NCBI GenBank assembly: GCA_003609755.1
Contig: AP017991.1
Span: forward strand, 1,753,501-1,817,500
Length of the DNA: 64,000 nucleotides
Origin: Planktothrix agardhii NIES-204
GTDB taxonomy: Bacteria; Cyanobacteriota; Cyanobacteriia; Cyanobacteriales; Microcoleaceae
Direction of reading: 5' to 3'
Shown here: positions 8,797-22,297 of the stretch, in pieces
Layout of the letters: every line of letters starts with the position of its first letter
Position numbering within the stretch: the first letter of the stretch is position 1
Notes under the pieces: model-generated
Seen by the model: the letters and a program-made list of their open reading frames with translations, nothing else
Told to the model about the DNA's origin: nothing
Databases searched by the model: none
Program-made: the position numbers and the translations under genes

Positions 8797-9399
8797 GTGG
8801 CTTTTGAACTTCCCGCCCTACCCTTTGCCGACGATGCTTTAGAATCTAGCAAAATGTCGGCCAAGACCTTTTCCTTCCATCATGGTAAGCACCACGCGGC
8901 TTATGTTACGAACCTGAATAAACTGATTGATGGGACAGGACTAGCGGATAAATCCCTAGAGGAAATTATCAAGGCAACCGCCAATGACCCGAATAAAGCT
9001 GGAATTTTCAACAATGCGGCTCAAGTCTGGAATCATACTTTCTTCTGGAATAGTCTGAAAGCTGGTGGCGGTGGCCAACCCACAGGCGCTTTAGCCGACA
9101 AAATTAATGCTGACTTTGGTAGCTTTGACAAATTTATTGAAGAATTCAAAGCCGCCGCGACTACTCAATTTGGTAGTGGTTGGGCTTGGTTAGTATTAAA
9201 TAATGGCACTCTGAAAGTTACCAAAACCGCTAATGCAGGAACTCCTATTGTGGATGGATTAACTCCTTTATTAACTTTAGATGTTTGGGAACACGCCTAT
9301 TATTTAGACTTCCAAAATGCCAGACCTGCTTACATTGAAAACTTCCTAAATCAATTAGTGAACTGGGATTTTGTGGCTGAAAACTTCGCTGCTGCATAA
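8797..9399 (+). CDS. sodB: Iron superoxide dismutase
   Basis: 200 residues, the full length of cytoplasmic FeSOD, which converts superoxide to oxygen and hydrogen peroxide. Metal ligands are His28 (in FHHGKHH), His80 (AQVWNHTFFW), Asp162 and His166 (DVWEHAYY). The pattern AGGGGQPTGALAD and the Gln in the active site (FGSGWAW region) fit iron rather than manganese. The start is GTG at 8797, supported by GAGAGGAG at 8781-8788. The gene is monocistronic with its own terminator. The upstream 156 bases contain an AT-rich inverted repeat (TTTGAT/ATCAAA, about 8726-8742). Confidence 0.97.
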   Translation: MAFELPALPFADDALESSKMSAKTFSFHHGKHHAAYVTNLNKLIDGTGLADKSLEEIIKATANDPNKAGIFNNAAQVWNHTFFWNSLKAGGGGQPTGALADKINADFGSFDKFIEEFKAAATTQFGSGWAWLVLNNGTLKVTKTANAGTPIVDGLTPLLTLDVWEHAYYLDFQNARPAYIENFLNQLVNWDFVAENFAAA

Positions 9400-9431
9400 T
9401 TGAGCATTCTTTCTGAAATAGATTGAACCAC

Positions 9432-9476
9432 AAGCAAGACAGTCATTCTATTTTTAGAACTGTCTTGCTTTTTTTA
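9432..9476 (+). terminator. Rho-independent terminator of sodB
   Basis: A perfect 12-bp stem AAGCAAGACAGT/ACTGTCTTGCTT (9432-9443 and 9459-9470) followed by seven T, 33 bases after the sodB stop. Confidence 0.92.
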
Positions 9477-9608
9477 TCATCCCAATTAATTCAATATATT
9501 CAAGAGTTAGCCCAACTGCATCAAGAATTAATGAATTTGGGGGAGTGGTGGTTGGGAATAGAAAATGAGGTTTTTGGTTAAAATTGATTCCTCATCATTT
9601 TTTAGGGT

Positions 9609-10052
9609 CTAATGCTTCCAGTTCACCCCCAAACGTTTGAGATAATCCCAACCCCTTTGGGGCCAAACATGAGGACGTCCCGTTTTTTCAGCAATCCATT
9701 CCGCCACCTTCGGGCCAGACCAAGATCCACCATCCGGTGCTGGCCCCTTTAACGCCTGCATCAGTTCATGTTGTTGACCTAAAGTGAGTAAAGATTTCGC
9801 TATCGGGGGTTGGCGCTCCCGGCTACGATTCTTAATAGAACTAGGCCCCTCGCGGTTATAGCGCCGGATAATTTCCTTGGCATAGTCGTAATTTAACCCC
9901 ACCACTTCAGCCGATTGTTTAATTGTCCAATCCCCTGCCACAAGGCAAAGCAAATGCCATCGACGAGCCTCTGTCGTGTCTCGTGCTTGACGATAGCGAG
10001 CTTTCAGGTCATCGGGCGTTAGATACGGTTCAATGTGTGCTTTAGGTGGCAT
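9609..10052 (-). CDS. Winged helix-turn-helix protein, IS630-transposase N-terminal type
   Basis: 147 residues matching the DNA-binding half of IS630/Tc1-like transposases. A first HTH (KQSAEVVGLNYDYAKEIIRR) is followed by a basic linker (KNRSRERQPP) and a second winged HTH region (WSGPKVAEWIAEKTGRPHVW). The DDE catalytic half is absent, and the ORF ends cleanly. Stand-alone proteins of this kind are widespread in cyanobacteria. They may be domesticated regulators or halves of frameshift-expressed transposases. No terminal inverted repeats were seen around it. Confidence 0.75.
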   Translation of the reverse strand: MPPKAHIEPYLTPDDLKARYRQARDTTEARRWHLLCLVAGDWTIKQSAEVVGLNYDYAKEIIRRYNREGPSSIKNRSRERQPPIAKSLLTLGQQHELMQALKGPAPDGGSWSGPKVAEWIAEKTGRPHVWPQRGWDYLKRLGVNWKH

Positions 10053-10453
10053 TCCTCCGATTCAGCATCAGGAAATTTGGTTAGTCTATCTGATCGTTTT
10101 AAGGGTTTTCCGGATCAATGCCAGAATTTCTAAGAATTACGAATTACGAATTACGAATAGGTAATAGGTAATGGGTAATGGGTAATGGGTAATGGGTGAT
10201 ACTCAACGAGCGAGGACGCTCCCCCTACCTCCCCTGCCTCCCCTGCCCCCCTGCTCCCCCTGCTCCCTCCCCTACCTCCCCTGCCTCCCCCTACCTCCCC
10301 TGCCTCCCCCTACCTCCCCTACCTCCCCTGCCTCCCCTGCCTCCCCTGCTCCCCCTGCTCCCCCCGCTCCCCCTGCTCCCCTACTCCCCCTACTCCCCCT
10401 CCTGGTGTTAAACTCTGATATGGGTATTTTAAGAATATGAGGAATAACAGAGT
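10053..10453. repeat. Gene-free repeat region upstream of gatA (STRR heptamers and C-rich tract)
   Basis: From 10131 to about 10155 GAATTAC is repeated three times. It then grades through TAATAGG into four copies of TAATGGG up to 10197. From 10208 to about 10405 follows a nearly pure pyrimidine tract on the + strand built from a 9-base unit (CTCCCCTGC and variants CTCCCCTAC, TCCCCCTGC). It could encode low-complexity proline- or glycine-rich peptides on either strand, but these are repeat artefacts. The gatA promoter must lie within or just after the tract (10406-10453). Confidence 0.85.
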
Positions 10454-11914
10454 ATGGCATCCATCCGTAAGTTGCACCGACAACTGATCAAAAAAGAACG
10501 CTCCGCCGTTGAGATCACCCAGGAAGCGCTGGATCGGATTGCACAACTTGAACCCCAACTAAAGAGTTTCCTCTATGTGACGGCGGATAGAGCCTTAGAA
10601 CAGGCCCGTCAAGTAGATGCCAAAATTTCCAGAGGAGAAGAAATAGGTCTGTTAGCAGGAATTCCCATCGCCATTAAGGACAATATGTGTACCGAGGGAA
10701 TTCGGACTACCTGCGGTTCCAAAATTTTAGAGAATTTTATCCCGCCCTACGAATCTACCGTCACCCAGAAACTCGCTGCGGCTGGGGCGGTGATGGTCGG
10801 AAAAACCAACATGGATGAATTTGCCATGGGGAGTTCCACGGAAAACTCTGCCTATCAGGTGACAGCCAATCCCTGGGATTTACAACGGGTTCCGGGGGGT
10901 TCATCGGGGGGGTCTGCTGCGGCCGTAGCAGCCGGAGAAGCGGTGGTTTCCCTGGGTTCAGATACGGGGGGTTCGATTCGTCAGCCCGCGTCATTCTGTG
11001 GGGTGGTGGGATTTAAACCCACCTATGGTTTAGTTTCTCGTTACGGCTTAGTCGCCTATGCCTCTTCTTTAGATCAAATTGGGCCCTTTGGACGCTCTGT
11101 AGAAGATGTCGCTATTTTATTACAAGCGATCGCCGGACACGACCCTAAAGATGCCACCAGTTTAAACCTACCTATTCCCGATTATGTTTCCGGGCTATTA
11201 CCTTCATTGAGAGCCAGAAGTGGGATTAAAATTGGAGTAATTAAAGAAACCTTTGGGGAAGGATTAGATCCCATTGTAGAAAAAACTGTCACCAAAGCTA
11301 TTAGTGTTTTACAGGAATCCGGTGCAGAAATTCAAGTGGTTTCTTGTCCTCGATTTCGCTATGGTTTACCGACTTATTATGTAATTGCCCCTTCGGAGGC
11401 TTCGGCTAATTTAGCCCGTTATGATGGGGTGAAATATGGTTTCCGTTATCCCGATGCCGATAATTTAATTGAAATGTATCAGAAAACCCGGGCGCAAGGG
11501 TTTGGGGCGGAAGTCAAACGCCGGATTATGATGGGAACCTATGTATTATCGGCGGGATATTATGACGCCTATTATTTGAAAGCCCAAAAGGTGAGAACTT
11601 TAATTAAGGAAGATTTTGATCGGGCGTTTAGTCAAGTGGAAATTTTAGTTTGTCCGACCGCACCTTCAACGGCTTTTAAAGCGGGTGAAAAAACGGCTGA
11701 CCCATTAAGTATGTATTTATCGGATTTAATGACAATTCCTGTGAATTTAGCGGGTTTACCAGGTATTAGTGTTCCCTGTGGTTTTGATGATCAAGGCTTA
11801 CCCATTGGGATGCAATTAATTGGGAAACCGTTAGGGGAATCTCGGTTATTAGAAGTTGCTAATACCTATGAAAAAGCGACGGATTGGCATAATTATAAAC
11901 CTCAAGGAATCTAA
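10454..11914 (+). CDS. gatA: Asp-tRNA(Asn)/Glu-tRNA(Gln) amidotransferase subunit A
   Basis: 486 residues, full length. GatA liberates ammonia from glutamine for the GatCAB complex, which converts Glu-tRNA(Gln), and in many bacteria Asp-tRNA(Asn), to the correct amide. The amidase-signature catalytic triad is present: Lys75 in PIAIKDN, Ser150 in PGGSSGGS and Ser174 in [11 protein letters not shown]. The start [11 protein letters not shown] is standard for cyanobacteria. gatB and gatC are not adjacent, as is usual in this phylum. The leader contains the long pyrimidine tract described separately. Confidence 0.97.
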
Positions 11915-11977
11915 TCTGTAAATATTAGGGTGGGCTTTGCTCACCTCTTTAATCCTTCTGTAATTTTTCTAACCATT

Positions 11978-12280
11978 ATGTCCTATAAAGTTAATGTTTC
12001 CATAGAAAAAACGGATTCAGGATATTTAGCCTATTGTCCAGAACTCTCTGAACAAACCTTTCAAGGAGATTCACTGGATTTAATTTTTTCTGAATTAAAA
12101 ACTGTTATTCAAGCCGATTATCAACATCTAGTTGCTTCTGAAACTAAAAGAAAACCGATTTGGGAAATTGCTCAGGATTTAACTCAAGATATAACTGAGG
12201 ATGAACTTAAACTTTTTCCTGTTGATGGTGCAGAACAGCATAATCATTATATTTATGGAACTCCCAAAGAAAATCTATGA
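11978..12280 (+). CDS. HicB-like antitoxin
   Basis: 100 residues from ATG at 11978 (upstream in-frame codons have no conserved sequence). The N-terminus resembles the HicB partial RNase-H fold: VNVSIEKTDSGYLAYCPELS followed by QGDSL and an amphipathic helix. The C-terminal half is acidic and is probably the part that wraps the toxin. It overlaps the downstream PIN-domain gene by 4 bases (ATGA), so the two are translationally coupled. HicB normally pairs with HicA rather than with a PIN protein. Confidence 0.7.
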   Translation: MSYKVNVSIEKTDSGYLAYCPELSEQTFQGDSLDLIFSELKTVIQADYQHLVASETKRKPIWEIAQDLTQDITEDELKLFPVDGAEQHNHYIYGTPKENL

Positions 12281-12687
12281 GGGTAATATTTGCAGATACC
12301 TTTTACTGGATTGCTTTAATTAATCCTCAAGATCAGTGGTATCCCAAAGTGATAAAAGTTAGTCAGTTTCTGGGAACGATGAAACTGGTAACAACGGATG
12401 AAGTTTTAACTGAACTCCTAACTTTTTATGCTAACTCAGGAATTCAGCAACGACAACGAACAGTTAATTTTGTCAAAAATATTATAAACGATCCAGATAT
12501 TCAAGTGATAGAGCAAACCCATCAATTTTTTTTATCAGGTTTTTCTTTGTATGAACAACGTATGGATAAAGGCTATAGTTTAACGGACTGTATTTCAATG
12601 CAAACGATGTGTAACTTAGAAATTCAGGAAGTATTAACCCATGACAAACATTTTACTCAAGAAGGTTTTACAATCTTATTACAATAA
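12277..12687 (+). CDS. PIN-domain ribonuclease toxin (VapC-like)
   Basis: 136 residues. The four acidic residues of the PIN active site are in place: Asp7 (FADTFYWIAL), Glu46 (EVLTELL), Asp104 (SLTDCISM) and Asp123 (LTHDKHF). PIN toxins bind Mg2+ and cleave specific RNAs, often tRNA or the 23S sarcin-ricin loop. The upstream HicB-like gene overlaps its start and should be the cognate antitoxin. The pair lies between gatA and the NACHT gene. Confidence 0.85.
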   Translation: MRVIFADTFYWIALINPQDQWYPKVIKVSQFLGTMKLVTTDEVLTELLTFYANSGIQQRQRTVNFVKNIINDPDIQVIEQTHQFFLSGFSLYEQRMDKGYSLTDCISMQTMCNLEIQEVLTHDKHFTQEGFTILLQ

Positions 12688-12819
12688 TTCTTAATTATTA
12701 ATTTCCAAACTGTAGGGTTGGCTTTGCTCACCTTATTTTTAATCCCATTTAGAATGGTATTGCGGTTATTGCGATCGCTTAGAAAAAGAACAGAACGCGA
12801 GGACGGTTTCTTGAGTTAT

Positions 12820-15800
12820 CTACAATGTTTCCTTATAACTAATTTCAGTTAACCAATTTTGCAGAATATTAACTAAATTATTTTGCATCGGAAACCCTCT
12901 TAAATCAGGTTCAATCTGCTGATCGGTAATAAAAGCAATATGAAACTTACCCAACAGTTGACGGCAAACATTAATTAATTCTGGATAGGGTTCGATATTA
13001 TAGATAATAAAGACTAAAGTTAATATGTTGAGTTGTCTTTTAAACTTGGGGAATAAGCGTTTTAATTCCGGTGCATTTTTAACAGGTGGAATATCATCAT
13101 CGGGAAAAATAGCTTCATAAATTTTGTTACAGAGTTCCTGCGCGATCGCACTTTCATCGGTTAAATTTTCTAAACTATATTTACCATCAATTAGAATCGG
13201 ATAAACTTGATCAGTTGGTTGCAGTTGTTTGAGGATTTCAGTTAGATCATTATAGGAGGTTTCTAGTTGTTCTTTTGTTGTATCTGATTCATGCCATGCT
13301 TGATAAAATTCGGGGTAACTCATGTGTTGAGCGCAATGCCATAAGAGGTTATCAATTTCATGAGAGTTCTTATAATCCTTGATCATGACTTGATTTGAAA
13401 GGTAGTTTCTATAACTATGAATAATTTTTTTTGCATTCTCACGGGTTATCATTCTCTGCAAATACAAACAAATAATTGTTAATTTTTTTGAACTGTCTTT
13501 TGCAAAAGTCAATTCTAATAATTTATTAAACAGTATGTTTTTCGCTTCTTTTATTTTAGATAAGTGATAAGCCAAGGTTAATATTTCTTCTTCAGTTAAA
13601 TCATTAAAATGTATATTTCCAATTGTTGAATTTACTAAATCATGATTAGGAATAAGAAGCGATAAATTATAAATTAATTTAACTTTAACTTGAATATTAG
13701 AATTATCGGTTGATTCTATCTTATTTTCCAACGCTCTAATTGCATCATCTTCTTTTATTTCTAATTTACCTAAAATGTTACTAGCTAAAATACACAGGGT
13801 CTTATCTTTACTATCTAACATTTCTACTAATGTCTGAGAATCTTTCTGATTCTCTCGATCAATCTGTTTTAATCCCTCGGCTACTGTAAGAAGAGTATAA
13901 TCATTAAATTTAGATTTACTCTCCAGCATTTTCTCAAAACGAGCTATAATGATAGGATGATTACCCATTCTCGCTAAACTTTTAATAATTTCTTGAATAA
14001 CTGTTCGATCAGAACATTGATAAATTAATTCAAACAATTCATAAATAATATTTGTTTGCTGATGAGGATTGTTTTTACAAATTTCTTCTAAAGCATCTAA
14101 TGCTATTTTCCTGTTTTTTTCAAAGCCTTGCATTATAGGTAATTCTAAATACACAAATTCTAATTCTAAATACTCGTTCTCTTCAAAATTATATTCTGAT
14201 TGTTGTAGAATTTTTGCTGACCTATCCCTTAAAGCAATTTCCTCTAAAGTTGGTGTAATGATATTAAGAAGCTCAGGAACTAAAATAGAATGATTAGGCT
14301 GAAGCTTTGCTAAAGCCTGAAGAGAATTAATTTTAGAATTACAATCATCATTTTGATTAATAATATCAATTAATACATTTACAATATTATCGTCCGATTC
14401 ACAATGGATCTCACTGATAGCTTTTAAGGCTTCATTGTTGCAACGTTTGGATAATTCTATTAAAATTCTAATTGCCTTGAAATTATTGAAATCAATTATC
14501 CCTAAAGTTCTTGCCGCTTCAATTAGAGTATTTTGGTACTTACAATATTGAACTCCATCTTCTTCTATTAGATGATTTTTTTCATCCTCAATTAATTTTT
14601 TTAACTCATCTATAAAGTTCCTAATTTCTTTAATAGCTGCATTATTACCATTTCCAATTAAAGCAATTAGTTTTAATAATTCACAACATTTATCTTGATT
14701 ATTATATTGTTTATTTTTTCTAAGCAACTTAATTAATTCATCAATGATATAAGGTTGATTACCAAGGCAGATTTTTTGTAGCGTGGAAAAAATTTTTCTA
14801 ATTAAGAGATAGGATGAAGTCTGTTCGCTAATCTCCAATAGCTTTAAAATAGCCAGGTTACTGTTTGTTTCTAATAAAATATTTCTGGATTCTTCTTTGA
14901 TAGGCTCTAGTATCTTTGTGTTATTATTGATAAATGCCCAGTTTACAACTTGAGTAACAATTTCCTTTCCTTTAGAAAAGTTATGAAATTCAGCCATCCC
15001 ATTAGCAGCTAAAAAATATGCTTTATACCAATAAAATCCATTACACCGATCATCAAAAAAAACTAACGATTCAATAAACTTTTCTTTTTCATTATCATCA
15101 ACATTCTTACGTCCTAACCAAAATAATATAACTTGTTTCCATTGAGGTTTAAAAATACGGTATATTCCCAATTTAGGATTATGAGGAACATGATTCAAAA
15201 ACTCTTTACGCCAATCATCAATAACTAACGCTGCAAAATATTCTTGAAAAGTTGAATGCAGAAACGCATAAGCATCTTCAAACGGATTTTCTGCACCTTT
15301 GCCAACACAATTGAGTAAATTTAACTTCTTACCTAAGTAAAATAAGGAGTCTTTATCATCGGGATGACCTAGATACTGTTCTATATCACTTTCAGGTAAT
15401 AAAAACTTTTTGTCATCTAGTGCTTTTTTGGATAATTTACCTAAACCTTTCTCTAGTTCTTTTCGCTTCGGAACTGGGATTGTAAAATTAGAGCCTTTTA
15501 ATTGGTATACTTTATAAAAATTTTCCACGAAAAGTTTATAGAGTTCTGCTTGGGTATCCGGTAATTGTCCTTCGCCTAAAATCCAAGCATAACATAACAA
15601 AAATAAACGTAATGGATTTTTAACTAAATCTCGAATCCTAGATTTATTTTCTAACCGGAGTTCTGTTTTTAACGTTTCTCCTAAATCTTTATTCTCTGTG
15701 GAGTTTTGAAAGAATTGATCAATAAACTGTTCAACTTGATTCGGATAATCAAAATCTAAATTCCGGTAAGCATCAAAACCAGGTAAAGCATAGTCTTCCC

Positions 15801-16773
15801 AAAGATTAAACCGACAGGTAAGAATCACTTGAACAAAATCAAAAATGTTAAATTGATTAATCTGTTCTCCTATCTTTTGTAAGGGCGATGTAGCAGTCAT
15901 TTCGTCTACACCATCTAACAATAGGAAAACCTGTTGTGTTTTTAATAGTTCTTCTAAGGCTGTTTTCCATTCTTCTGATACAGTATCAAGCACTTGTGCT
16001 GCATTCCTTAACCAATCTTCGATGAGATATTGATCTAAAGTTTGATTTCCTAAACGTTTTAAAGAAATCCAGATGGGAATATAGTTATTGTGAATTAACT
16101 GATCACCGATTTTCTGTAATAAGGTTGTTTTTCCTGCGCCAGCTTCTCCAATAATCGCTATTCTTCTTCCTTTACTGTTAGGAGTATTACAATCACGAAT
16201 AACTTGATCAAAGAATTGTTGTTGATCGTCAAATGTATTTTTTCCGTTTTCAGTCGGCTGATACAATCTTGATCCTAATTCTGCTGAGTCAATATCTTGA
16301 CGTTTAGAAGGTCGCTGACGTTCTACTAAACCCAATGGTACAAACAAATCATCAATCTTAAAGGTCATCCCCTGTTTAGCTATTAGGGAATTCGTAGTTA
16401 AAAGTTTTTCTTTGTTAAAGAGTTCAATACATCGATCACGAAGTTTATCAATAACATGGGTGATTTCAACATCTTGATCATTAAATGATTCAGAAGGAAA
16501 CTTAGATTGAAAGTATTCATTCTCTAACTGTTTTAGAAAGCGTTCACGCTTACCTCTTCCACCTTCAATTTTAAATTTGTCGTAAACCCTTTGCATTGCC
16601 TTTATATAAGCCGCATCATTGCTATCATTTGTCATTTGCCTAACTGTCTTGTTGAGATTCTCTCTTATAAAGCTTTTAACGAATGCTTCTGTTTCAGTAG
16701 GTGCTAATCCAAAATTATCAGCCTTATATCTCAAAAAATCGTTCCAACCTTGCCACTGGCTTTCCGCTTCCAT
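12820..16773 (-). CDS. NACHT NTPase with helical (HEAT-like) repeats, NLR-like
   Basis: 1317 residues. The N-terminal helical region (1-160) is of unknown type and has no nuclease or protease motif that I can see. The NACHT ATPase follows: Walker A GEAGAGKTT at 209-217, Walker B LLLDGVDE with Asp287 and the second acidic pair Asp290/Glu291, and a sensor-like CRF at 320-322. Residues about 330-640 include the winged-helix/helical part with LHSTFQEYFAALVI. From about 640 to 1180 are degenerate HEAT-like helix pairs that could sense a ligand. The last about 110 residues are a separate compact domain ending in FPMQNNLVNILQNWLTEIS. Bacterial NACHT proteins of this architecture include anti-phage NLR-like sensors. 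Anti-phage activity here is inference. It is transcribed divergently from the HTH/DUF2726 pair. Confidence 0.88.
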   Translation of the reverse strand: MEAESQWQGWNDFLRYKADNFGLAPTETEAFVKSFIRENLNKTVRQMTNDSNDAAYIKAMQRVYDKFKIEGGRGKRERFLKQLENEYFQSKFPSESFNDQDVEITHVIDKLRDRCIELFNKEKLLTTNSLIAKQGMTFKIDDLFVPLGLVERQRPSKRQDIDSAELGSRLYQPTENGKNTFDDQQQFFDQVIRDCNTPNSKGRRIAIIGEAGAGKTTLLQKIGDQLIHNNYIPIWISLKRLGNQTLDQYLIEDWLRNAAQVLDTVSEEWKTALEELLKTQQVFLLLDGVDEMTATSPLQKIGEQINQFNIFDFVQVILTCRFNLWEDYALPGFDAYRNLDFDYPNQVEQFIDQFFQNSTENKDLGETLKTELRLENKSRIRDLVKNPLRLFLLCYAWILGEGQLPDTQAELYKLFVENFYKVYQLKGSNFTIPVPKRKELEKGLGKLSKKALDDKKFLLPESDIEQYLGHPDDKDSLFYLGKKLNLLNCVGKGAENPFEDAYAFLHSTFQEYFAALVIDDWRKEFLNHVPHNPKLGIYRIFKPQWKQVILFWLGRKNVDDNEKEKFIESLVFFDDRCNGFYWYKAYFLAANGMAEFHNFSKGKEIVTQVVNWAFINNNTKILEPIKEESRNILLETNSNLAILKLLEISEQTSSYLLIRKIFSTLQKICLGNQPYIIDELIKLLRKNKQYNNQDKCCELLKLIALIGNGNNAAIKEIRNFIDELKKLIEDEKNHLIEEDGVQYCKYQNTLIEAARTLGIIDFNNFKAIRILIELSKRCNNEALKAISEIHCESDDNIVNVLIDIINQNDDCNSKINSLQALAKLQPNHSILVPELLNIITPTLEEIALRDRSAKILQQSEYNFEENEYLELEFVYLELPIMQGFEKNRKIALDALEEICKNNPHQQTNIIYELFELIYQCSDRTVIQEIIKSLARMGNHPIIIARFEKMLESKSKFNDYTLLTVAEGLKQIDRENQKDSQTLVEMLDSKDKTLCILASNILGKLEIKEDDAIRALENKIESTDNSNIQVKVKLIYNLSLLIPNHDLVNSTIGNIHFNDLTEEEILTLAYHLSKIKEAKNILFNKLLELTFAKDSSKKLTIICLYLQRMITRENAKKIIHSYRNYLSNQVMIKDYKNSHEIDNLLWHCAQHMSYPEFYQAWHESDTTKEQLETSYNDLTEILKQLQPTDQVYPILIDGKYSLENLTDESAIAQELCNKIYEAIFPDDDIPPVKNAPELKRLFPKFKRQLNILTLVFIIYNIEPYPELINVCRQLLGKFHIAFITDQQIEPDLRGFPMQNNLVNILQNWLTEISYKETL

Positions 16774-17018
16774 AGTTATTACAACGATTCCTAGTCTGTT
16801 CTAAATATGAGTCTAGCGTACATTTAAAAAAATTTATAGCATTTTACTCAATTTCTAAAAACCTTATGGTTAGACCGTTTCAGGAACTTAGTGGAAATAA
16901 ACTTCCACTATTTTTAGTCGATAGTGGAAATAAATTGGAATTTCCCTTTTGGAGATATCGAGATAATCTCAAATTAGTAGCCAGAAAGTTACTTACTAAT
17001 CTATAGGAGAAGAAAGCT
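16774..17018. promoter_or_regulatory. Divergent intergenic region with palindromic operator-like sites
   Basis: The only spacer between the NACHT gene and the oppositely oriented HTH/DUF2726 genes. It contains TAGTGGAA (16889-16896), a 6-nt spacer and TTCCACTA (16903-16910), which is a perfect inverted repeat. A third TAGTGGAA follows at 16922-16929, and a GGAAAT/ATTTCC inverted pair overlaps it. A strong ribosome site TAGGAGAAG lies at about 17004-17012. The sites could bind a dimeric regulator controlling both directions; this is inferred. Confidence 0.5.
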
Positions 17019-17279
17019 ATGACCGCTTATTACCAACTCAGTCTTTTCCCCAACGAACCCCCAACCCCTGTTGAACTTCTCAATAAAAAACGACAACCCA
17101 AACCCCAAATAATGATTATCGAAAATTGCTGTACGACTCAACGCGCAACAGAACTTTTAGACGTTTCCCCAACAACGCTTTATCGAGCGAGAAAAGCAGG
17201 TCAACCTTATCAAAAAGGGGGTTGGGTTGCTGAATCTATTGGTGATAATGCTTGGAAAGTTACATTTAACGCGGGTTAA
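17019..17279 (+). CDS. Small HTH-like protein of unknown function
   Basis: 86 residues. The central part TTQRATELLDVSPTTLYRAR reads as a helix-turn-helix of the excisionase/MerR kind, followed by a GGWVAESIGDNAWKV wing-like stretch. It is basic around the turn. It is the first gene to the right of the operator-like repeats and precedes the DUF2726 protein by 76 bases, so it could regulate this divergent locus. I do not recognise a named family. Confidence 0.55.
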   Translation: MTAYYQLSLFPNEPPTPVELLNKKRQPKPQIMIIENCCTTQRATELLDVSPTTLYRARKAGQPYQKGGWVAESIGDNAWKVTFNAG

Positions 17280-17355
17280 GTTTCATCGGTTTATTGATGG
17301 TGGGTGCGCTGCGCTTACCCACCCTACAAATAGAAATTTTTGGAGAAAATTACAA

Positions 17356-17883
17356 ATGAGTTACGCTTACAATTCAGAAGAATTTGATTTTAATTCAGAG
17401 GATGATTTTATCCTTAATTTTGAAAATGGAGAGATTATCAACGAATTGGAAATGATCGTGATGGAAATTGTAGAAATGATTTTAGGCGATCGCTTTCGCT
17501 ATTGTCCCCAGGTTCCATTAGGAGTAATTTGTTCCCATTCTGTGGGATGGCTACCGAATAATATTTGGAAATTTTGGGTGAATTCCAGAGTCGATATTGC
17601 CTTAATGGAACGGGGATTTAAAGCCAGTCGTAAAGCAAAATTAGCCATTGAGTGTCAATCTTATTATCATGATAGTTTAGAAGCCCAGGTGCGCGATCGC
17701 AAAAAAGCAAAACTCTTAGAAAAGGTGGGAGTTCCCTTAATTTATGTGCGTTCGGTTGAAACTGATAGAAGGTTTTATCGGTTTTATACCCCAGATGAAA
17801 ATACAGAAGTTTTTTATAATATTATTAATCAGGAGGGACGAACGGAATTAGAAACCTTTTTAACTGCCATTGTTACCCTTTAA
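17356..17883 (+). CDS. DUF2726-like PD-(D/E)XK-fold protein
   Basis: 175 residues from ATG 17356 (GGAGAA at 17342-17347 precedes it; codons upstream of the ATG read through repeat sequence). It shows a nuclease-like core: RYCPQVPLGVI, then SRVDIALM with Asp80, then LAIECQ with Glu99 and Gln101, then R..DRKKAKLLEKVGVPLIYVR. This order (D ... E-x-Q/K ... basic helix) is that of PD-(D/E)XK enzymes such as Vsr- and DUF2726-type proteins. The usual catalytic Lys is replaced by Gln, which is tolerated in some families. Function is unknown; nuclease activity is inferred. Confidence 0.65.
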   Translation: MSYAYNSEEFDFNSEDDFILNFENGEIINELEMIVMEIVEMILGDRFRYCPQVPLGVICSHSVGWLPNNIWKFWVNSRVDIALMERGFKASRKAKLAIECQSYYHDSLEAQVRDRKKAKLLEKVGVPLIYVRSVETDRRFYRFYTPDENTEVFYNIINQEGRTELETFLTAIVTL

Positions 17884-17912
17884 TATTACCATCGGGATTA
17901 AAAGCATAAATT

Positions 17913-17943
17913 AACCCCCTTTCTATTATATAGAAGGAGGGTT
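17913..17943. terminator. Hairpin between convergent DUF2726 gene and secG
   Basis: Arms AACCCCCTTTCTA (17913-17925) and TAGAAGGAGGGTT (17931-17943) pair with one or two mismatches. It lies 30 bases after one stop and 27 bases from the other. There is no strong T run, so efficiency is uncertain. Confidence 0.55.
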
Positions 17944-17969
17944 CAGGATTCAATCATAAATTGACAATC

Positions 17970-18197
17970 CTATTTAATCCAACCTGCACTTAAAATAACA
18001 GTAATTCCCATAAAAATAATTGCCAACATCCAAGTAATCCGATTTAAGGTAGTTTCGGCACTTTTGGCGCTAGTAAAGAGTTGAGCTTGTCCACCAATAC
18101 CCCCAATACCGTCGCCTTTAGGACTATGGAGTAAGACCAGAATAATAATCCCTACAGCCGATAAAGACCAAACCGCTTGTAATACTTGAGTAACCAT
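17970..18197 (-). CDS. secG: Preprotein translocase subunit SecG
   Basis: 75 residues with two membrane helices (about 4-24 and 51-71) joined by the conserved cytoplasmic loop LHSPKGDGIGGIGGQAQLF. SecG helps the SecYEG channel in protein export and thylakoid insertion. It follows gpmI by 77 bases in the same direction, an arrangement seen in other cyanobacteria, and is probably cotranscribed with it. Confidence 0.95.
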   Translation of the reverse strand: MVTQVLQAVWSLSAVGIIILVLLHSPKGDGIGGIGGQAQLFTSAKSAETTLNRITWMLAIIFMGITVILSAGWIK

Positions 18198-18274
18198 GTT
18201 AAGAAGTTGATAATTTGAACAGAAAAATTAAACCTTCAAACCTTTGATTATAACCTATTTTTCAAGGAATTAAT

Positions 18275-19873
18275 TTAAAGTTTTACCCGCATCGGAGTCC
18301 GATTTTCCCGAACTTCATAGGCGGCGGATTCAATCATAGAAACACCCGTCATTTCCGGGGGTTGAGGAATACCCAAAATCTGCAAAATCGTAGGCGCGAT
18401 ATCCGCTAAACAGCCATCTGTCCGTAAAGGAATATCGGTTCCATGACCTGGGATTTTGCGTTTTTCCCCTTCTACTAGGATAAAGGGAACGGGGTTAGTT
18501 GTGTGGGCTGTCCAGGGATTTCCTTCCGCGTCGCACATATATTCGGCGTTACCATGATCGGCAATAATAATCGCCGTCCCCCCAGCTTGACTAATACCTT
18601 GTAACAATATCCCTAAACAGTGATCAACGGTTTCAACGGCTTTTACTGCCGCCTCCATCATCCCCGTATGTCCGACCATATCAGGATTAGCGTAATTAAT
18701 TACAATTAGGGAGTAAATGCCCTTTTCAATACCTTCAATTGCCACATCTGTTACAGCTTCGGCCGACATTTCCGGTTGTAAATTGTATGTAGCAACGGAG
18801 GGACTGGGAATTAATTCTCGGTCTTCCCCCGGATAGGGTTGTTCCAAACCGCCATTAAAAAAATAGGTGACATGGGCATATTTTTCGGTTTCCGCCGTGC
18901 GTAATTGTTTTAACCCGTGTTCAGCAATAACTTGTCCGAGAATATTATTTAGATTTTGGGGTTCAAAAGCTACTAATACGGGAAAATGAGAGTCATATTG
19001 AGTTAAAGTTACAAAGCTCAGGGGCTGAATATAGGAACGTTCAAAATCCTTAAAATTAGCATCAATAAACACCTGAGTTAACTCCCTTGCCCGGTCAGGA
19101 CGGAAGTTAAAGAAAATCACCCCATCCCCGGCTTCCACCGACCCAGGCGCGATTCTACAGGGCACCACAAACTCATCGTTTATGCCTTCAGAATAGGAAG
19201 ATAACATCACATCGGCGGCGGATAATCCATTACCTTCGCCATCGGTAATTATGACATCATAAGCTTGTTTAACTCGATCCCATCGTTTGTCTCGATCCAT
19301 GGCATAATAACGGCCACTAATTGTTACAATTCGACCGATACCAATAGCATCAATTTGTTCTTGAAGTTGCTTAATATATTTAATTCCATCTTTAGGATTA
19401 GTGTCTCGACCATCCATAATGGCATGAACACAAACATCTCTAATATTTTTAGCTTTTGCTAAGTTTAAAAGTCCGTATAAATGATCTAAATGGGAGTGAA
19501 CACCACCATCAGAACATAAACCCATCAAGTGTAACTTGCCGTTTTTATCTAAAACATCTTGACAGACTTTTAACAATGCCGGGTTATTTTGAATTGTGCC
19601 ATCTTCAACCGCATCGGAAATTCTAACTAATTCTTGGGGAACAACGCGCCCCGCACCAATATTCAAATGACCCACTTCTGAATTTCCCATTTGCCCCACG
19701 GGTAAGCCCACGGCTTTCCCAGAGGTGCGAATTAAAGTTCGGGGGTAAGCCATCCATAGACTATCCATCACCGGGGTATTGGCAACGGCTATGGCATTTC
19801 CGTCGGCTTGTTCACGATAACCCCATCCGTCCAAGATAATCAGTACAACCGGAGATACAGATTTTGGTGCCAT
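18275..19873 (-). CDS. gpmI: 2,3-bisphosphoglycerate-independent phosphoglycerate mutase
   Basis: 532 residues. It interconverts 3- and 2-phosphoglycerate in glycolysis and carbon flow from the Calvin cycle. The alkaline-phosphatase-type active site is visible: Asp15 in LIILDGWG, the phosphoryl-accepting Ser65 in GQMGNSEVGHLNIGAGR, DGRDT in the substrate domain, and the second metal cluster in NYANPDMVGHTG and IADHGNAE. Length and motifs are standard. It is probably cotranscribed with secG. The divergent gene starts about 85 bases upstream. Confidence 0.97.
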   Translation of the reverse strand: MAPKSVSPVVLIILDGWGYREQADGNAIAVANTPVMDSLWMAYPRTLIRTSGKAVGLPVGQMGNSEVGHLNIGAGRVVPQELVRISDAVEDGTIQNNPALLKVCQDVLDKNGKLHLMGLCSDGGVHSHLDHLYGLLNLAKAKNIRDVCVHAIMDGRDTNPKDGIKYIKQLQEQIDAIGIGRIVTISGRYYAMDRDKRWDRVKQAYDVIITDGEGNGLSAADVMLSSYSEGINDEFVVPCRIAPGSVEAGDGVIFFNFRPDRARELTQVFIDANFKDFERSYIQPLSFVTLTQYDSHFPVLVAFEPQNLNNILGQVIAEHGLKQLRTAETEKYAHVTYFFNGGLEQPYPGEDRELIPSPSVATYNLQPEMSAEAVTDVAIEGIEKGIYSLIVINYANPDMVGHTGMMEAAVKAVETVDHCLGILLQGISQAGGTAIIIADHGNAEYMCDAEGNPWTAHTTNPVPFILVEGEKRKIPGHGTDIPLRTDGCLADIAPTILQILGIPQPPEMTGVSMIESAAYEVRENRTPMRVKL

Positions 19874-19958
19874 ACTTAAGTTACCTTTTCCTGCTTGTGG
19901 TGATTTCTGGCTAGATTATACCTTATGGGGGAAGTCTATTAATCACCAGAACTTGACA

Positions 19959-20960
19959 ATGCCACCTATAAAACTTAAAATTCAGCCTTTAAAAGCTGAT
20001 ACAAAATCTAAATTTTTAGGGCGTTTAATGAAATTTGCGATCGGTCTCCTCCGCTTCCTTAAACCTTATTTACGATGGATAGTCCTAGGAGGAACATTAT
20101 TTTTCTTGGCGGCAAATTTTAGAAAGCATTGGCAAGAAATTTCAGAAATTGATATTAGTTCAACGGGATGGCTCTATCTCGGATTAGCTCTGATTATTAC
20201 CCTTTGCGCCCATATTTGGTCAGCCTTTGTCTGGTTAATTATTGTTAAAGAGTTTAAGCAAATAATTAGACCCCGTTGGGGATTACAGCTTTATTTAATT
20301 ACTAATCTTGCGAAATATTTACCGGGGAATATTTGGCACTTTTATGGGCGAATTATGGCGATGAAAGACTATGGTATTGCCCTAGAAGCGGCAGCATTAA
20401 GTGTATTACTCGAACCCTTAATCATGGCATTCGCAGCATTAGGACTGGCATTAATCAGCTATCATAGTTCCTATTTGGTCATACAAATTCTAGGTTTAAT
20501 TGCTTTAGGAATTGGGATCCATCCTCGGATTTTAAACCCAATTCTGAAATATTTAGAAACCTCAAAATTTAAAAAACAACTGTCTGATTTTCCCCAGGAA
20601 GCCTCCTGTCAATTAGATCATTATCCCCTCAAACCCCTATTCGGAGGAGCAAGTTTCGTTTTATTAAGATGGTCGGGTTTTATGTTGACTTTACTCGCCC
20701 TAACTCCCCTAACTTTTGAGCAAATTCCGATATTATTAGGAGCCTATAGTTTTGCTTGGTTATTGGGGTTATTAATTCCGGGCGCACCCGGAGGGTTAGG
20801 GGTGTTTGAAGCCACTATTTTAGCTCTATTGAGTCAACAATTTTCCCCTGCTATTTTATTGGGTGCGATCGCATTTTACCGTTTAGTCAGTATTCTCGCT
20901 GAAACCCTGGGTGCATTATTAGCCAAATTAGATCAAAGATTTTTAGATAATTCTAATTGA
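19959..20960 (+). CDS. Lysylphosphatidylglycerol-synthase-TM/UPF0104-like membrane protein
   Basis: 333 residues from ATG 19959 (a TTG two codons earlier is possible). A basic N-terminus is followed by about seven to eight membrane helices. The pattern NLAKYLPGNIWHFYGR (the conserved KY.PG block of this family), LIPGAPGGLGVFE and YRLVSILAE marks the flippase-like transmembrane domain related to MprF. There is no soluble synthase domain. Members are thought to move lipids or glycolipids across the membrane; the substrate is unknown. Its 3' end overlaps the convergent nanE gene by 28 bases. Confidence 0.8.
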   Translation: MPPIKLKIQPLKADTKSKFLGRLMKFAIGLLRFLKPYLRWIVLGGTLFFLAANFRKHWQEISEIDISSTGWLYLGLALIITLCAHIWSAFVWLIIVKEFKQIIRPRWGLQLYLITNLAKYLPGNIWHFYGRIMAMKDYGIALEAAALSVLLEPLIMAFAALGLALISYHSSYLVIQILGLIALGIGIHPRILNPILKYLETSKFKKQLSDFPQEASCQLDHYPLKPLFGGASFVLLRWSGFMLTLLALTPLTFEQIPILLGAYSFAWLLGLLIPGAPGGLGVFEATILALLSQQFSPAILLGAIAFYRLVSILAETLGALLAKLDQRFLDNSN

Positions 20961-21622
20961 TAAGATTTAACTAATAAGTCAATTCCCGTAATCGCTGTAC
21001 CAACAACTACAGCATGGGCTCCTAAATCTAAGGCTTTTCTAGCCATTTCCGGTGAAGAAATTCCGCCTTCACAAATTACAGGAACTTGCAATTTTTTAAC
21101 CATTTGAGCTAATAAATCAAAACCCGGAGGAGATTGATTTTGGGTAGCTTTTGTATAACCATATAAGGTTGTTCCTACACAGTCTGCACCCGCTTCTACG
21201 GCTTCTATAGCTGCTTCTAAACTATCCACATCCGCCATCACCAATTTGCCTAATTCTTGATGGATTTTAGCAATTAAATTCTTAACGGTTTCTCCTTGGG
21301 GACGTTCTCGCAAAGTCGCATCAATCGCAATTATATCAGCCCCGGAGTTAGCGATCGCCACAGCATCTTCAAATCGTGGTGTAATATACACATCAAACCC
21401 AGGAATTTGTTGTTTCCATAGCCCAATAATCGGCTGAGAAACCCGTTTACGCACCGCTTTAACATGGTCTGGGGTATCTATTCTCACCCCTAATGCTCCT
21501 TGGTTAACGGCGGCTTTAGCCATGGCTGCAATGACAATGGGATCATGTAGGGGAGAATCAATTGGCGCTTGACAGGAGACAATTAATCCGTGAGTTAAGA
21601 GGGAAAAAATATTAGATTTCAT
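20933..21622 (-). CDS. nanE: N-acetylmannosamine-6-phosphate 2-epimerase (putative)
   Basis: 229 residues from ATG 21622; a GTG ten codons upstream adds a poorly conserved stretch. It has a TIM-barrel with NanE signatures: GLIVSCQAP near the start, GALGVRIDTPDHVKAVR, GLWKQQIPG, IIAIDATLRERP, VMADVDSLEAA, GADCVGTTLYGYT, PVICEGGISSPE and VVVGTAITG. The reaction converts ManNAc-6-P to GlcNAc-6-P in sialic acid or amino-sugar metabolism. No nanA or nanK is adjacent, so the cyanobacterial role may be cell-wall sugar recycling. Confidence 0.9.
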   Translation of the reverse strand: MKSNIFSLLTHGLIVSCQAPIDSPLHDPIVIAAMAKAAVNQGALGVRIDTPDHVKAVRKRVSQPIIGLWKQQIPGFDVYITPRFEDAVAIANSGADIIAIDATLRERPQGETVKNLIAKIHQELGKLVMADVDSLEAAIEAVEAGADCVGTTLYGYTKATQNQSPPGFDLLAQMVKKLQVPVICEGGISSPEMARKALDLGAHAVVVGTAITGIDLLVKSYQLELSKNL

Positions 21623-21694
21623 GAAGGATTTTTGAGGTAAACACAAAGGCACTAAGGCACAAAGAATATTAAACTTTGAGCCATCAAAAATTAA

Positions 21695-22297
21695 TTATTT
21701 TGAATTAAAACGGTCTATTTCTTGTTGAAATATTTCTTTAAAAATTTGGGTAGCTTGAGGTTGAATAATTTGGGAGAATAGTTGGATTGATTCTTGGAGT
21801 AATTGAGGCATAACAGTAATGGTTTTTTTGCCTGTGGGTGTTTGATAAAAGTCAATCATAGTTTGTAAATCTTTTTCTGTAAAGAATTTATCATACAGGG
21901 GATAATAAACTTTTTCCAGGATTTGGTTAAAATCAAGTTTTTCCATTAATCTTTGATTATATTGGGTGAGAATGCGACTCATATCTTGGTTAATTTGATT
22001 AATCATTTGTTGCTTTTTTTCTGAGGAAATTCCCGAATTTTCTGGGACAATAGATTCTAAAATCCCAGTAAATTCTTGTTGAAGTTGGGCGGTCGTAATT
22101 TGGCTAACCTGTCTAAATAGTTTTTCTCCTCCGGTGAGTTCTATTAATTCTCTGATCAGTTGACGTTTACTTTCAGAAACAGATGGTTGAGATAATTCTA
22201 ATTCAGGTTTGGGAGTAGATTCTGCTTTGACAGGTGTGGGGAAAATTACCCCTAAAGATAAAATAGTTCCCAGTAATAAAATTCGCTTTAAGAACAT
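21695..22297 (-). CDS. DUF2059 secreted protein
   Basis: 200 residues. The N-terminal signal peptide MFLKRILLLGTILSLGVIF is followed by a probable cleavage after VKA (residues 23-25). The mature part is all helical, with the DUF2059 features KQLIRELIELTGGEKLF at its start and YYPLYDKFFTEKDL plus MIDFYQTPTGKK towards the end. It is presumably periplasmic. The function of the family is unknown. It lies 72 bases upstream of nanE on the same strand. Confidence 0.85.
   Translation of the reverse strand: MFLKRILLLGTILSLGVIFPTPVKAESTPKPELELSQPSVSESKRQLIRELIELTGGEKLFRQVSQITTAQLQQEFTGILESIVPENSGISSEKKQQMINQINQDMSRILTQYNQRLMEKLDFNQILEKVYYPLYDKFFTEKDLQTMIDFYQTPTGKKTITVMPQLLQESIQLFSQIIQPQATQIFKEIFQQEIDRFNSK

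Follow-up and report, generated by a model that had tools for sequence, protein, structure and literature searches.

A candidate defence cassette in Planktothrix agardhii and related cyanobacteria: divergent, replaceable STAND sensors beside a predicted nuclease unit with a clamp-type motif

The closest described relatives in design are bNACHT25 and bNACHT32, members of clade 6 of the bacterial NLR-related proteins, in which a NACHT sensor is coupled to a PD-(D/E)XK deoxyribonuclease (DNase) fused at the N-terminus, with NCH1 at the C-terminus (PMC12169576). Characterised antiviral STAND proteins are usually single chains that include the killing domain (PMC10907252, PMC12169576). A variable sensor encoded apart from its effector is described for the effector-associated domain (EAD)/diversity-generating retroelement (DGR) STAND systems, which use peptidase effectors and homotypic adaptors (PMC10907252). 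DUF2726 has been named a restriction endonuclease-fold DNase in predicted abortive-infection fusions, that is, AbiJ-NTD3-DUF2726 (PMC3710099). XssQ of Synechocystis PCC 6803 is a cyanobacterial STAND protein with an N-terminal helix-turn-helix (HTH), an activator of exopolysaccharide genes according to electrophoretic mobility shift and expression assays (PMC8205485). The locus presented in this work lies in a window of 64,000 nucleotides from the 5.08-Mb genome of Planktothrix agardhii NIES-204. It consists of a NACHT STAND sensor gene and, divergent to it, a unit of a small HTH gene and a predicted DUF2726-type nuclease gene.

The gene order is gatA / HicB-like / PIN / NACHT (-) / HTH (+) / nuclease (+) / secG (table 1), where the names gatA, secG and HicB are readings from sequence. 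The open reading frames (ORFs) and the divergent layout listed by the first-pass annotation of this DNA were all found in place. In common with bNACHT25/32, the sensor has a central NACHT with Walker A and B and a C-terminal repeat/sensor region. Unlike them, its N-terminus looks HTH-like, its C-terminus is NCC-H/NCAB1, and the DNase is a separate divergent gene whose unit carries a clamp motif. The nuclease is stand-alone, with no AbiJ part recognised, and no sensor-nuclease adaptor of the EAD/DGR kind was recognised as shared. The sensor is likened to XssQ by description and not by HTH homology; in a plasmid search with a 456-aa relative (L203), no Synechocystis appeared among the matches listed (best 10 of 37). 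Clamp-binding transposases and replication proteins share the QLxLF-type docking motif (PMC4549789, PMC12309361), but in the cassette this is N-terminal, on the HTH partner or the nuclease, and beside a STAND gene. Nothing joining a STAND/NACHT sensor to a clamp-motif nuclease was found in the open-access literature, as covered by titles and the beginnings of abstracts. The cassette suggests a different plan, in which the persistent part is the clamp-addressed nuclease and the sensor is replaceable across the NACHT and NB-ARC classes. This suggests an infection-triggered switch that has so far gone unrecognised.

The locus is read, with a probability of about 0.45, as an exchangeable three-gene cassette with sensor-controlled expression of a clamp-addressed nuclease that probably acts against phages. 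The STAND sensor would read an infection signal via its HEAT-like region, and its N-terminal HTH-like domain would occupy an operator in the shared divergent spacer. Once activated, the sensor would raise the expression of the HTH-nuclease unit, in the way XssQ acts on its targets. Using its N-terminal QLSLF, the HTH protein would dock on DnaN, the sliding clamp of the host, and would bring the PD-(D/E)XK nuclease to replicating DNA, which would be cut. The full picture, an NLR-type sensor as transcriptional switch for a replisome-addressed nuclease steered to forks by an HTH adaptor, with sensor modules recombining, is offered only tentatively.

To follow the recurrence of the pair, a profile of 12 aligned nucleases was run on 388 genomes of the order; 38 had hits at E ≤ 1e-6, and a clean gap separates 15 loci, the window included, with at least 207 bits from the remainder with at most 97 bits. 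Scanning named genomes yielded 11 loci, three of them additional (L082, L083, and L084). Together with the truncated nuclease of G332 (L086) there are 19 loci, 18 of them intact; the decayed locus of G346 is excluded from all counts. In a sample of the phylum, a strong nuclease was found in 4 of 386 genomes, all 4 within the same order.

A divergent STAND or tetratricopeptide repeat (TPR) sensor accompanies the nuclease at 18 of the 19 loci, with 85-422 bp between sensor and nuclease unit (longest ORFs); at the remaining one (G365) only 237 bp of contig precede the HTH start. The partnership, previously an inference, thus holds in the co-occurrence test, and the linkage of the nuclease with a divergent sensor is firmly conserved. 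The 18 sensors comprise 15 NACHT, one NB-ARC-TPR (G055), and two HTH-TPR proteins (L082, L083). NACHT was assigned by Pfam in 8 of the 15 and by the Walker A motif in the other 7, of which 6 match the NTPase region of the window sensor by BLASTP. The seventh (G311) matches only the C-terminus of the window sensor and is sister to G305 on the NTPase tree; the profile behind that tree had G311 and G152 among its seeds. In a control of seven distant DUF2726 loci (L067-L073), none matches the window sensor, in a search that would miss NB-ARC or TPR sensors, and none has a long divergent sensor-like ORF adjoining the nuclease.

Full-length relatives of the HTH protein (at least 115 bits) occur in 9 of the 388 genomes and always adjoin the nuclease (9/9, truncated in G332). 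Seven weaker matches (at most 55 bits) have neither a nuclease nor a NACHT match within 1.5 kb; they begin at model position 16 or later, so that the part with the clamp motif is absent.

Three side observations concern these loci. The seven control nucleases (DUF2726-like, about 30% identity) all lie directly behind a conserved gene of ~235 aa on the same strand, starting MSK(I/L)IYDV, an unstudied pair. The contig of L084 is binned as Flavobacterium sp. UBA8409, probably wrongly, and its nuclease is almost the same as that of Planktothrix (tree distance about 0.05). The sensor of G314 (L121, 4605-7365) has 546 aa and ends beside a DDE_3 transposase gene; it was probably cut by an insertion.

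A serious rival to transcriptional coupling is direct activation, where a ligand-bound NACHT oligomer would switch on a pre-made nuclease or HTH-nuclease complex; the N-terminal HTH-like domain would then be an adaptor or autoregulator, and the palindrome of the spacer would control the sensor's own gene only. This is possible, though coupling is favoured. The order is strictly divergent in all 18 loci with room for a sensor, and such an order is more typical of a regulator and its target than of the subunits of one complex. Moreover, three sensor architectures with differing N-terminal domains are hard to fit to one specific interface. On the other side, bNACHT25/32 use a fused PD-(D/E)XK DNase (PMC12169576), and STAND proteins with adaptor domains have been proposed to recruit separate effectors (PMC10907252).

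The spacer palindromes described by the first-pass annotation are present, with a third half-site. The pattern AGTGGAA-N6-TTCCACT, with up to one mismatch allowed, has no other copy in the genome. Among the 18 spacers, three half-sites (GTGGAA/TTCCAC/GTGGAA) are found in the window, G332, and G060, one in G255, and none in the rest. A GAA-N6-TTC palindrome (arm of at least 7, one mismatch allowed) was then scored upstream of sensor genes. It precedes 7 of 12 genes with the N-terminal domain of the window sensor (called type-i), compared with 0 of 14 other cassette sensors and 0.11 expected by shuffling in the 12. Four of the seven are type-i NACHT genes outside the cassette, away from the nuclease, as the autoregulation of the direct-activation view predicts; two of these (G081, G011) are near copies. 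Another 28 NACHT loci, from which type-i members had not been removed, gave two matches, namely the gene of G081 again and a different palindrome (L019). When 38 type-i genes were taken together, remote ones included, the palindrome was mostly absent and thus belongs to the nearer type-i relatives.

Two natural swaps separate the palindrome from the HTH protein. G332 resembles G033 in the HTH protein (89/90) and the NTPase region (87%) but has the type-i domain and the palindrome, whereas G033 is without the palindrome. G140 resembles the window in the HTH protein (79/86), has a different N-terminal domain on the sensor, and lacks the palindrome. The HTH protein was therefore rejected as a palindrome-binding repressor. 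The swaps, with the 7/12 versus 0/14 distribution, make shared control plausible with the sensor as the binder: of the earlier suggestion of shared control, the control itself gains support, and the palindrome follows the N-terminal domain of the sensor and not the HTH protein. The type-i domain is a plausible candidate for binding this operator-like element, which opens a route to testing whether the widespread type-i STAND proteins are regulators. Separately, a CTCAAA(T/C)TA element was noticed by eye in five spacers whose sensors differ; it stands ahead of the start of the HTH-nuclease unit or of the nuclease and could be a shared promoter element.

The nuclease reaches 27.3 bits with Pfam DUF2726 (cut-off 24.7), and 9 of the 12 aligned members match at E ≤ 0.1. 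The 18 intact cassette nucleases all agree in D80, E99, and Q101, which would be the catalytic residues, and likewise in S102, H105, and K117. Among PD-(D/E)XK enzymes, BglII has the same replacement of E-x-K by E-x-Q. The most likely start is the ATG at 17356, with GGAG ahead of it. A sequence search of the PDB was uninformative (best match the Holliday junction resolvase 1ob8, E=0.43).

Weak matches of the nuclease to MTES_1575 and DUF559, families related to Vsr, would suit a regulated DNA-repair nuclease at the fork (Vsr/MutL/NucS-like) instead of a defence effector, and clamp-coupled repair nucleases, that is, MutL and NucS, do exist. Such a role is quite improbable given the patchy distribution (15/388 genomes), the diversified sensor repeats, and the different cargo at the same place in a genome of the same species (G126).

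The HTH protein is weakly matched by Pfam (HTH_17, E=0.0024, 18.5 bits; cut-off 27). Its QLSLF pentapeptide is invariant in seven aligned proteins, though identity to the window copy drops to 35%, and is present in 9/9 HTH proteins, where its first residue is number 5 or 6 and the codons vary. Five loci that lack the HTH gene (G055, G305, G311, G314, and L084) have QLSLF or QLNLF in the nuclease, at residues 5-9. On the nuclease tree these motif-fused nucleases occupy three separate branches; support is moderate in places, long branches are flagged, and the starred branches alone are compatible with one origin. In total, a clamp-type motif is near the N-terminus in 14 of the 19 loci, as QLNLF in two.

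Among 1829 distinct ORFs of at least 60 aa from the fetched loci, QL[SDN]LF occurs 18 times, 13 of them in the first 20 residues, and all 13 are cassette proteins; the set is non-random, 30 of its loci having been picked by a DNA pattern resembling QLSLF, a bias that would lower the contrast. The HTH protein of G053 is not counted among the 13, since the longest ORF has an earlier start. A degenerate DNA pattern for QLSLF matches 151 times in the genome of the window, and the 30 matches inspected as loci contained one ORF with QL[SDN]LF. This is a chromosomal plasmid replication protein of the CyRepA1 family (L174, G000:C1 near 1054373), which ends in QLSLFMPGNS, the motif beginning ten residues before the C-terminal end.

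The common consensus for clamp binding is QL[S/D]LF, and the DnaN of Bacillus subtilis binds a QLSLF peptide with a dissociation constant of 3.8 uM (PMC12309361). Conservation, fusion, and the published consensus together make it likely that the cassette proteins bind the sliding clamp. The clamp motif in the HTH protein is a new observation, and the evidence for the motif is strong. With the QLSLF tag, replisome targeting becomes testable with a short peptide.

Since QLxLF motifs are frequent in transposases (PMC4549789) and toxin-antitoxin-like genes also occur at the site beside gatA, the HTH-nuclease pair might be a toxin-antitoxin or selfish mobile unit that travels with STAND genes by chance. 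This is improbable. The HTH gene is absent from 10 of the 19 nuclease loci and was thus rejected as an obligate antitoxin, and a sensor is adjacent in 18/18 loci with room for it. Relatives of the nuclease were found neither in plasmids and phages (E ≤ 1e-5) nor in IMG/VR viral contigs; the HTH protein had no phage matches and two partial, weak plasmid matches only. A phage or plasmid origin was therefore rejected. No common transposase was noticed in the ORF lists, although no dedicated transposase search was made.

In the window sensor, Pfam recognises NACHT (6e-10, 39.6 bits; cut-off 26.7) and, marginally above its cut-off, HEAT_2 (1e-6, 29.1 bits; cut-off 27.7). The Walker motifs reported before were confirmed, as GEAGAGKT from residue 209 and LLLDGVDE from residue 284. 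Pfam shows no effector domain in residues 1-165, and the type-i domain of the window copy is without a Pfam match. Its HTH nature is predicted from weak matches among 29 type-i relatives: GerE in one (7e-4), HTH_10 in three (0.011), and Sigma70_r4 in one (0.045). In other cassette sensors, GerE is above the cut-off in the TPR sensors L082 and L083, and HTH_26 and HTH_31 are below it in G053 and G033. Sequence searches of the PDB gave no match for the whole sensor and an uninformative one for the type-i domain (best E=0.0089, a chain named X55).

The C-terminus, taken at first for a unique domain, is not so, as Pfam assigns it to NCC-H and NCAB1. The same two domains are carried by a NACHT protein (L180) of G147, a genome without matches to this nuclease. 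The proposal to use the last ~110 residues as a mark of the partnership fails likewise: they form a known domain, and several nuclease-paired sensors do not have the C-terminus of the window type, namely those of G053 (no NCAB1), G055 (NB-ARC-TPR), and two Nostocaceae loci (TPR). As a side observation, the whole genome of the window (G000) has 21 NACHT matches at E ≤ 0.001, 13 of them above the Pfam cut-off.

The nuclease module persists while the sensor is replaced, even NACHT versus NB-ARC, as shown for some loci. Between the sensors of the window and G255, identity is 78-97% for residues 1-510 (56% within 46-100) and 76-97% for 1111-1317, in contrast to 19-46% for 511-1110. With G140, identity is 92-97% only over 1168-1317 and 11-43% elsewhere. 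The HTH and nuclease proteins of the window are 91-94% identical to those of both genomes; for G140 the nucleases are 91% identical and the sensors belong to different clades. DNA similarity to G255 and to G140 breaks at the same position, 13344 (residue 1144), inside the NCC-H motif. On the NTPase tree (53 rows), the window and G255 are outside a supported clade (100/99) with G140 and eight other cassette sensors. The HEAT-like region is likely to be the part that reads the ligand, and on this point the sister loci with exchanged sensor parts serve as natural experiments.

Several results weigh against the proposed cassette. On the NTPase tree the cassette label changes four times, below all 500 shuffles (mean 13.2), and the starred branches alone force one change, so that a single origin is compatible; this clustering limits replacement to some loci and does not show free exchange. 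No NTPase was recognised at E ≤ 0.01 in the sensors of L082 and L083. Profile matches to the type-i domain occur in 108 of 195 genomes sampled, far beyond the range of the nuclease, and the domain is thus not nuclease-specific. Among the 12 type-i genes, 5 have no palindrome or a degenerate one (G255, G147:C6, G076, G074, and G093), including the close relative G255 with the same type-i domain. For the window copy, a terminator-like hairpin with a T run is another possible reading; in the copy of G060 the T run is absent by eye. Five of the 19 loci (G139, G178, G152, L082, and L083) have neither an HTH gene nor a clamp motif, both nuclease and sensor having been checked, which makes the motif non-essential or lost there. 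PADLOC has no fitting model (best mad8, 17.7 bits, P-loop only) and the NCBIfam antiphage EruA model gave 29.3 bits against a cut-off of 1000; a known PADLOC defence system was rejected on these weak matches.

Table 1. Features of the locus, with positions in the window unless another genome is named
Feature	Position	Strand	Basis
HicB-like gene	11930-12280		
NACHT STAND sensor, 1317 aa	12820..16773	-	ORF, Pfam, Walker motifs
NCAB1 domain, residues 1169-1311	12841..13269	-	Pfam 3.6e-22
NCC-H motif, residues 1135-1161	13291..13371	-	Pfam 7.6e-13
HEAT-like region, residues 511-1110	13444..15243	-	replaced between sister loci
NACHT NTPase domain, residues 203-327	15793..16167	-	Pfam
Sensor N-terminal domain (type-i), residues 1-100, predicted LuxR/sigma-4-like HTH	16474..16773	-	weak matches in relatives
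Operator-like element, TAGTGGAA-N6-TTCCACTA and direct half-site 33 bp on	16889..16934	.	spacer comparison
Palindrome proper, TAGTGGAA-N6-TTCCACTA	16889-16910		
Third half-site	16922-16929		
CTCAAA(T/C)TA element	16968-16976; also spacers of G255, G139, G152, G178		
Small HTH protein, 86 aa, proposed clamp-binding adaptor	17019..17279	+	ORF, weak Pfam, motif alignment
QLSLF codons, residues 6-10, consensus beta-clamp-binding pentapeptide	17034..17048	+	HTH alignment
Nuclease, longest ORF	17227-17883	+	
DUF2726-type PD-(D/E)XK nuclease (predicted), 175 aa	17356..17883	+	Pfam, alignment
Predicted catalytic residues D80 and E99-x-Q101	17593..17658	+	conservation

Rfam gave no match at gathering score in 9000-22000 of the window, and an RNA element was rejected as a reading of the locus.

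The contents of the gatA-secG interval (10454-18197 in the window) differ between relatives in the comparison with L144, L145, and L146. The cassette is within this interval in G000 and G255 and follows gatA in G140. In G126, of the same species, gatA is followed instead by DUF433, DUF5615, and a 633-aa AAA_15 protein with an OLD-like TOPRIM match below the cut-off. A similar 633-aa protein with a DUF433-like gene (by sequence) is present in G075, of the same genus, and in G234 the HicB-like gene and secG are separated by a DUF433 gene alone. In G140 and G075 gatA is kept and secG is on another contig. The HicB-like gene accompanies gatA also in relatives without the cassette there, and in G126 it is run together with DUF433. 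This variability is an indication of cargo behaviour as of defence genes, short of proof; the architecture and this site together suggest the anti-phage function. A stretch of 122 bp retained in G075 resembles window 17229-17350 (the HTH end and the nuclease leader), and is perhaps a remnant or a dispersed repeat.

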